A stretch of 64,000 nt of DNA from Lachnospiraceae bacterium AC2012 (lineage in GTDB: Bacteria > Bacillota > Clostridia > Lachnospirales > Lachnospiraceae), in assembly GCA_000702525.1 (NCBI GenBank), contig JNIN01000002.1, forward strand, positions 186,001 to 250,000, read 5' to 3'. The notes under the pieces are model-generated. The model searched no databases, had not been told where the DNA came from, and worked only from the letters and a program-made list of their open reading frames with translations. Below, piece after piece: positions 58,694-60,391 of the stretch; within the stretch, counting starts at the first letter, position 1; every line of letters starts with the position of its first letter. A program made the translations under genes and the position numbers.

Positions 58694-59605
58694 TCAAAAC
58701 AGGTCAAGGGTGTTATCAAGATACAAAGCTTCACGCACATGAATCTGATACCTTGGTTTTGTCATATAATACAGAATAAACTCCAGTACCAACGCGCTAC
58801 CAAGCCCGCGACCCTCGATTTTAAAATTCGAAAAGCCCACCGGAAGGTAAACATTTTCAATATCTTCCAAACTAATAAAACCCGGGTTGTCCATTGCCTT
58901 CGCAAAAGAATAGCCCTCACTTGCACCAGGTGACGTGCAGATGTGATCCGGTCCCGTAAGTCCAAGGTTCTTGCGACTTACATCGCGATAACACTCTGCA
59001 CGATCCGTGCAACCGAACCAACAGCACTCATTGCAGAGGAATTCCACCTTGTCTTTCAACTCCTGCGAAAGCCCCTTCCAATCCTCTATTCTCTTATTTA
59101 ATCGAAAATCTGGAACAACATATTGAAACTCCTCACGTTCCAATTCCTCTTTCAACTTCTCGAAATGCGTAATCACCTTAGTTGTCGACGAAACAAAATA
59201 TAATTCCGGGAAATGGTTCCGCAGATACTCCAACAACAAATCCGAATGCACAATCACACCGTTCTGGACAGCTAATTCACTCTCTTGTCCGTATCTTACT
59301 AGCTTCTTGCATAAATCATTACATTTCTTATCACGAAGATGCTCTTCTTCTACTAAAGAATTACTGCATGTCAATCGAGCTGATATTCCATAATCTCGTA
59401 ACATCGCAAATACATCATCCGGCGAGTCAAAACCAAGTTCCACCCGGCCGCCACCCCAGAGACACCCAGCCGGTGACCCGTAAATAGAACCAATCTCACA
59501 CCAATCATAGAAATATTCCCGATGTTCCTTATATAATTTCAAAAACTCCCGATAAAACTCATAAAACTCGAAGAGTCCCGGCAAGTGATAATATGCTTTA
59601 TTCAT
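58694..59605 (-). CDS. Cys-rich U32-like TIM-barrel protein of unknown function
   Basis: A 303-residue soluble protein. I do not know a named family; the layout recalls peptidase U32-type barrels. Visible landmarks are EIGSIYGSPAGCLWGGGRVELG (about 40-62), ISARLTCSNSLVEEEHLRDKKCNDLC, HSDLLLEYLRNHFPELYFVSSTTKVIT and a Cys cluster FLCNECCWFGCTDRAECYRD near residue 200, well suited to bind zinc or an iron-sulfur cluster. I start at 59605 behind AAGGACGGATTTTCA; the frame further up has no site. It is flanked by the long dyad-rich region at its 5' side. Confidence 0.7.
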   Translation of the reverse strand: MNKAYYHLPGLFEFYEFYREFLKLYKEHREYFYDWCEIGSIYGSPAGCLWGGGRVELGFDSPDDVFAMLRDYGISARLTCSNSLVEEEHLRDKKCNDLCKKLVRYGQESELAVQNGVIVHSDLLLEYLRNHFPELYFVSSTTKVITHFEKLKEELEREEFQYVVPDFRLNKRIEDWKGLSQELKDKVEFLCNECCWFGCTDRAECYRDVSRKNLGLTGPDHICTSPGASEGYSFAKAMDNPGFISLEDIENVYLPVGFSNFKIEGRGLGSALVLEFILYYMTKPRYQIHVREALYLDNTLDLF

Positions 59606-60391
59606 TGAAAATCCGTCCTTCTCTATGTCATACATTTTATTTACTATGTCATACCATCCAATTGATTTTATAAGTATAGCTTCTATCGGGCGTACGTGTC
59701 TAGATGGGGAGCCTTTGGATAGAATTCGTTCGGTTTTTCCTGGTGAACGGTTGGTTCTTTGAAAATTACAGAAAACAACCGGATTTAGCACAATTTTCTG
59801 TAATTCGACTTGTTACAGGCACAAATTCAACGGTAAATTATCTAAATATTTTTAATATAATTCCAAATTACGGTAAAATATAACAATTCTACAATTTATA
59901 CCGTAGCATTTCTTTGTAAAATAAAGTGGTTTACAGAATAGGCATGAATAATCCTTATTATTCTGTAAAAAACATTCAAGATAAATTGTATGCAATTCTA
60001 ATATTTGATATGGAATTCGTTACTTTAACATATCTGTATAAAGCATTACGGTATAAACAATTAGATTCAAAGGTTTTTCCGTAAAATCAAAGGATTTACC
60101 AAAATCGCTTACAGAAAACATGCGCATATCCGAAGAAAATTCCGTAAATTCAGTAAAGCAGCCCAAAATCCACAAAGAATCTATCAAGTATCTTTCCCTC
60201 TATTTTTTCCATCCGAATACTGTACAAATCTTCCGAAAGCCCGAGAAGAAATTTATGAATTTTTCACGAATCTAGATTTTATGCCTTCGGTAACGTTCCC
60301 AAAAATTCCAAACTAGATTATAATGCAATTTAAAAGCAAGAAAAAAGGAACACAAACACAACGATTTACAACAAAGAAAGAGGATGATTAC
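59606..60391. promoter_or_regulatory. Long non-coding region with an array of TTAC(A/G)G dyads
   Basis: No gene is credible in these 786 bp between divergent genes. Five inverted pairs of TTACAG or TTACGG have arm-start distances of 32-33 bp: 59766/59798, 59868/59901, 59931/59963, 60046/60079, 60109/60142. The best are AATTACAGAAAA with TTTTCTGTAATT (59764-59805) and TTTACAGAATA with TATTCTGTAAA (59930-59969). Pairs 2-3 and 4-5 repeat the same order with 63-bp spacing, 178 bp apart. TATAAT at 60319 may serve the GH13 gene. Function unknown. Confidence 0.7.

Follow-up and report, generated by a model that had tools for sequence, protein, structure and literature searches.

A regularly spaced array of inverted repeats occupies positions 59766-60147 of a 64,000-nucleotide stretch of DNA from Lachnospiraceae bacterium AC2012 (the window, on contig C2 of a genome of two contigs and 2.55 Mb), and is made of five dyads, that is, inverted pairs of the half-site TTAC(A/G)G. 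With a probability of about two in three, we read it as a gene-less docking array of a nuclease-like protein from a family of about 265 amino acids, here called RSKSE after its motif, which would be dispersed in a REPIN/RAYT-like manner. Related arrays are commonly found directly upstream of RSKSE genes, their dyads follow the turn of the double helix, and within single genomes the same half-site recurs in arrays beside the gene and in arrays far from it. Altogether, these observations suggest that a protein and docking arrays of its own make up a two-part system hitherto unrecognised; binding of the arrays, cutting of DNA, spread and benefit are what we infer from sequence.

The RSKSE family

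Clustering of the open reading frames close to arrays gave one nearby family, at a median distance of 109 bp and in 10 loci. Of the 397 Lachnospiraceae genomes sampled, 142 encode it, often several times over. It corresponds to no Pfam or NCBIfam family (43 members in the Pfam search) and to no entry of the PDB by sequence. The structure model obtained from a 43-sequence alignment (mean pLDDT 95) predicts a helix, three strands and a long helix, followed by a C-terminal alpha/beta domain. This last domain resembles PD-(D/E)XK families, namely PADLOC PDC-S68 and HEAT_CxxC_PDDEXK (best E 8e-33), and also the structures of DrdV, R2 and MunI in Foldseek, these below significance at E <= 0.001. Residues K159, E161, D192, E207 and H208, and likewise R157, are invariant in 43/43 sequences; taken with the predicted fold, E161, D192 and E207 correspond to the conserved acidic, catalytic-type residues of the PD-(D/E)XK superfamily. 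The (D/E)-X-K position reads E-H-x, and the invariant K159 adjoins E161. The N-terminal half is more variable than the C-terminal domain and is devoid of matches; the likeness to PDC-S68, HEAT_CxxC_PDDEXK and helicase-type proteins covers essentially the C-terminal half only.

Matches on plasmids (H4-H8) carry the C-terminal domain alone, inside AAA ATPase and RecD-like helicase proteins. A phage origin was considered and rejected: matches to the protein are limited to three short 'Bacteriophage sp.' records without annotation, and those in viral contigs to the C-terminal domain.

Arrays upstream of the gene

At least four dyads in the 900 bp upstream were detected for 36 of the 44 RSKSE genes with testable flanks. 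Downstream, the same was true of 3 of 46, and in shuffled sequence of 0 of 44. The rule is not universal, since the other 8/44 genes fall below four dyads, and in another sample, drawn from genomes selected for their arrays, clear upstream arrays were seen for about 17 of 30 genes. The upstream repeats have periods mainly of 51-54, 62-64 and 73-74 bp, equivalent to five, six and seven turns of the helix. The half-site differs from gene to gene, often containing TAC (TTACAG, TACGTA, GACACG, GGCTACC, GCATC and others). At the level of genomes, the gene is present in 7/7 of those with multiple array matches compared with the 142/397 of Lachnospiraceae as a whole (p = 7e-4). For array-selected genomes the figure is 25 of 31 (p = 1e-6; mixed taxa, with the Lachnospiraceae rate as background).

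Helical phasing of the dyads

A scan across 84,980 species, in which the within-dyad distance was fixed and the gap between dyads was left free from 12 to 37 bases, recovered at least 109 stretches with two consecutive dyads, with about two expected by chance (an estimate). Among the matches listed, to which the distances that follow also refer, most come from Lachnospiraceae and others from Ligilactobacillus ruminis, Peptoniphilaceae, Levyella, Murdochiella and a metagenome-assembled genome of Tissierellia. The within-dyad distance, fixed by the scan, is 32, 33 or 34 bp in 378 of 389 cases, and the distances between dyads cluster at 19-20, 29-31, 39-41, 50-51, 60-61 and 70-71 bp. When every distance is entered a single time per locus (106 loci), the latter show a periodicity of 10.35 bp (R = 0.84, n = 173, Rayleigh p ~ 1e-53), a p value that overstates the number of independent cases because loci within one genome are related. 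Such a phased spacing is characteristic of proteins lined up along one face of the double helix, and steps of about 10.35 bp therefore point to duplex DNA read on one face and not to RNA hairpins. The original prediction, which is partly supported as a whole, had offered either a multimeric protein on one DNA face or a set of similar hairpins in a transcript; it is the first option that this period favours.

The second option fared worse, as helical phasing would be meaningless for an RNA. In diverged copies, moreover, the sequence of one arm does not follow that of the other: among 40 dyads, 16 have A in one arm and G in the other at position 5 (Fisher p = 0.34). Over all unique dyads, 22 of 70 are mixed at this position and a partial association of the arms is observed (p = 0.006), probably inflated by recent copies. 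In one element, A.C and G.U mismatches co-occur. The interiors of the AC2012 dyads are hardly more similar to each other (0.38) than shuffled sequence (0.35), and the half-sites persist.

An array acting as RNA would nevertheless have precedents. In type III toxin-antitoxin systems (ToxIN type), tandem repeats are located directly upstream of a nuclease gene and the repeat RNA binds the toxin. A repeat-RNA antitoxin of this sort, or else a TIGR-Tas guide array, would agree with the position of the repeats directly upstream of a nuclease-type gene, common to both systems. In addition, the folding of four among the five window dyads surpasses that of most shuffled sequences, whichever strand is taken. 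Any inverted repeat can fold as a hairpin, and the mutually unrelated dyad interiors of AC2012, which is what guides would look like, are offset by arrays whose interiors are nearly identical (0.85 in genome G037). With the helical steps between dyads, the lack of arm covariation in diverged copies, the absence of any match of the arrays in Rfam and, for the toxin-antitoxin type, a fold of DNA-endonuclease type, hairpins and guides were both rejected, and we consider an RNA function very improbable.

TIGR arrays consist of alternating 8-12-nt repeats with 9-nt spacers beside the gene of a Nop-domain protein and are processed into 36-nt guide RNAs (PMC12045711). Like the present arrays, they are made of short repeats in alternation beside the gene of a nuclease-type protein, with a repeat sequence that is constant at any one locus and varies from locus to locus (PMC12045711), but they differ in the sizes of repeat and spacer: here, inverted half-sites lie 32-34 bp apart, with stepped start distances of 20/30/40 bp, and neither 9-nt spacers nor guide-RNA features are in evidence. 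No Pfam match to the Nop domain was obtained for the 43 RSKSE members. A CRISPR array was discarded in view of the inverted arms and of interiors repeated within many arrays.

In a separate observation, arrays of TTACRG dyads with no RSKSE gene detected were found in Microcoleus (L107), Acinetobacter (L165) and Thermobacillus (L187) and set aside. In L107 and L165 successive dyads are separated by another step, and the three are possibly unrelated classes.

Half-sites shared within genomes

In six genomes an extended half-site is common to the gene-adjacent and the gene-less arrays, and it changes from one genome to another: TTACGGGTGAA in RGIG5638, TTACGGACTA in S1R_St_64 and TTACAGTCT in RUI131, with SUG2129, Pseudobutyrivibrio ruminis CF1b and G167 as further cases. 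A search for TACGTA arrays in 28 genomes, three of them with known gene arrays of this word, gave matches in those three and in G037, and in 0 of the 24 others. The gene array of G037 proved on later inspection to have TACGTATCAAAA-type half-sites, so that 4/4 TACGTA genomes (G308, G052, G010 and G037) have a gene array of that word. The matches of G010 lie only beside the gene, and clear gene-less arrays are present in G308 and G037 (the places in G052 were not listed). G037 contains twelve arrays of 10-36 half-sites with steps of 32, 21, 32 and 21 bp, which are 63-81% alike along their matched length and have mostly unrelated flanks; copying therefore seems to have involved the array as such. 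In Lachnospira multipara, the gene array has TTACAGAA and TTACGGTA half-sites, the same two forms found in the window, and so have the gene-less arrays of the same genome.

Alternatively, a general DNA-binding regulator or a nucleoid organiser could recognise the arrays, the RSKSE gene being merely one of its targets. Same-face phasing and the many dispersed intergenic copies would suit such an architectural protein, but the half-sites vary between genes and between genomes, and a single genome can hold several of these words next to different RSKSE genes. A single global protein therefore does not explain the arrays, and we regard this possibility as unlikely.

In the docking model that we prefer, one protein chain would contact each half-site, a dyad, spanning about three helical turns, would accommodate a dimer, and adjacent dyads would stack on the same face of the DNA. 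The complete unit would be formed by the array followed by the gene, and the upstream position of the array suggests that the protein may also control its own gene. Gene-less arrays would probably spread as non-autonomous copies with the help of the cognate protein and, in AC2012, would additionally hitch-hike in an element with terminal inverted repeats (TIRs). More tentatively, and with somewhat less than even confidence, the whole may represent a class of bacterial genetic element not described before and common in gut Firmicutes, in which a PD-(D/E)XK protein of fast-changing DNA specificity is accompanied by long arrays of its own half-sites in phase with the helix, the gene-less arrays replicating inside genomes as a population under the action of the protein.

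Several data weigh against the docking reading. Foldseek found no match in the PDB at E <= 0.001, and in 6 of the 31 array-bearing genomes the gene was not detected. Various genes in array-bearing genomes, L. ruminis included, have an upstream word unlike that of the dispersed arrays, and the similarity of half-sites tracks that of the proteins weakly (Mantel r = 0.18, 3/2000; for spacers, r = 0.14, 36/2000). In AC2012 itself, the sole family member (C1:204999-205787) has an array of 52-bp repeats with a different word, TACTGTRC, and a search of the genome for a second member found none. The cognate gene is apparently missing from AC2012, whether by loss or otherwise, which would make the window arrays orphans; alternatively, they may be served by the remaining protein with a looser specificity.

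Elsewhere, a family gene with an internal TAA stop (L201, G150:C3:139889-140653) was found in a genome that has gene-less TTACGGA arrays.

Relation to known repeat systems

The closest parallel is REPIN/RAYT, where a gene has its own adjoining palindromic repeats, many gene-less repeats with its word lie elsewhere in the genome, the word is particular to each gene and several sets may occur in one genome (PMC3116915). In the genomes with matching words, though not in AC2012, the RSKSE gene is similarly flanked by its own repeat and the same repeat is dispersed. The differences reside in the enzyme and in the DNA: RAYT is a relative of HUH/tyrosine transposases that acts on single-stranded hairpins, whereas RSKSE has a domain of PD-(D/E)XK type and its arrays are long, made of spaced half-sites, phased with the helix and located upstream of the gene. 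An IS200/IS605-type HUH tyrosine transposase is not what the searches indicate, since no transposase was matched by RSKSE in Pfam and its C-terminal fold is of the PD-(D/E)XK type instead. BOX/RUP and other small interspersed repeats, as well as miniature inverted-repeat transposable elements (MITEs), are likewise short, dispersed and non-coding, and partly have terminal inverted repeats; to our knowledge, none of them includes a gene-linked array with gene-specific half-sites. A literature search limited to open papers found no description of such arrays, in agreement with the earlier remark that no named element with this layout is known.

These results connect dispersed regular arrays, a protein family without a name and a matching DNA word specific to each gene. 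If the docking model is true, the association would be a protein-DNA counterpart of REPIN/RAYT with a different enzyme fold, and the 57 gene-array pairs read here would provide a natural set of DNA-binding domains with their sites from which a recognition code could be derived.

The window array

The features of the window array are given below; none has an assigned strand, and the arm distance is measured from the start of TTAC.G to the start of its inverted partner.

59766..59803, no strand: dyad 1, TTACAGAAAA ... TTTTCTGTAA; starts 59766/59798, arm distance 32
59813..59836, no strand: putative, probably decayed dyad; exact TTACAG at 59813, CGGTAA at 59831
59868..59906, no strand: dyad 2, TTACGGTAAA ... 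TATACCGTAG; starts 59868/59901, arm distance 33; right arm CCGTAG, with one mismatch
59931..59968, no strand: dyad 3, TTACAGAATA ... TATTCTGTAA; starts 59931/59963, arm distance 32
59983..59998, no strand: central palindrome AAATTGTATGCAATTC, within the 83-bp step
60046..60084, no strand: dyad 4, TTACGGTATA ... TTTTCCGTAA; starts 60046/60079, arm distance 33
60109..60147, no strand: dyad 5, TTACAGAAAA ... AATTCCGTAA; starts 60109/60142, arm distance 33

The five inverted pairs originally described, with their coordinates and distances of 32, 33, 32, 33 and 33 bp, were all reproduced, and their regularity is beyond chance. Positions 59700-60200 hold 10 exact half-sites, when 5000 dinucleotide shuffles gave a mean of 0.44 and a maximum of 4, and four of the dyads are exact, when the same shuffles gave none (mean 0, maximum 0). 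The array sits between two divergent genes. The neighbour on the right encodes a GH13 protein (Pfam Alpha-amylase); that on the left (58694-59605, minus strand) gave no match in a Pfam search, which leaves its former label as U32-like unsupported.

Copies in the AC2012 genome

The AC2012 genome contains 93 occurrences of the dyad pattern and 37 of the double dyad; a reversed control gave 7 and 0. The arrays form about 19 clusters flanked by unrelated genes, with two layouts. Type A, with about 14 copies, is a 372-bp array of six dyads; type B, seen in the window, L002 and L003, has two dyads on either side of an 83-bp step in which a central palindrome is located, palindromes related to AAATTGTATGCAATTC being located at the equivalent position in L002 and L003.

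The location between divergent genes would fit a local operator for GH13 or its neighbour, as had been suggested. This idea was rejected because the array is multi-copy, with its clusters lying next to unrelated genes, and we consider it extremely improbable. The double dyad was also absent from the three same-genus genomes scanned, which are 77-83% complete and so a weak test. The genes flanking the window array have a different order in G003, and synteny at the locus is not recoverable.

Several type-A copies reside inside an element with TIRs CAATGTCATTTAGAT. Both ends of this non-autonomous element were seen in L052 (1309-1981, 673 bp) and in L062 (1323-2142, 820 bp), the latter surrounded by a 10-bp imperfect target duplication. 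These copies raise the question of whether the arrays are just what a miniature transposon carries inside it, unconnected with the nuclease family. The hallmarks of a MITE (TIRs plus target duplication) apply to this subset (L052, L062) but not to the window copy, around which the TIR was not found, as was also the case for L002, L003, L051, L057, L058, L065 and L066, and some copies without TIRs are diverged and have unrelated flanks. A transposon thus explains a subset only, and both the G037 arrays, alike among themselves in mostly unrelated flanks, and a gene link that recurs in many genera speak against it, which makes this account decidedly unlikely.

Other dispersed palindromic elements adjoin type-A arrays in L055 (1258-1401 and 1812-2048); each is 75-77% self-complementary and has many further copies in the AC2012 genome.
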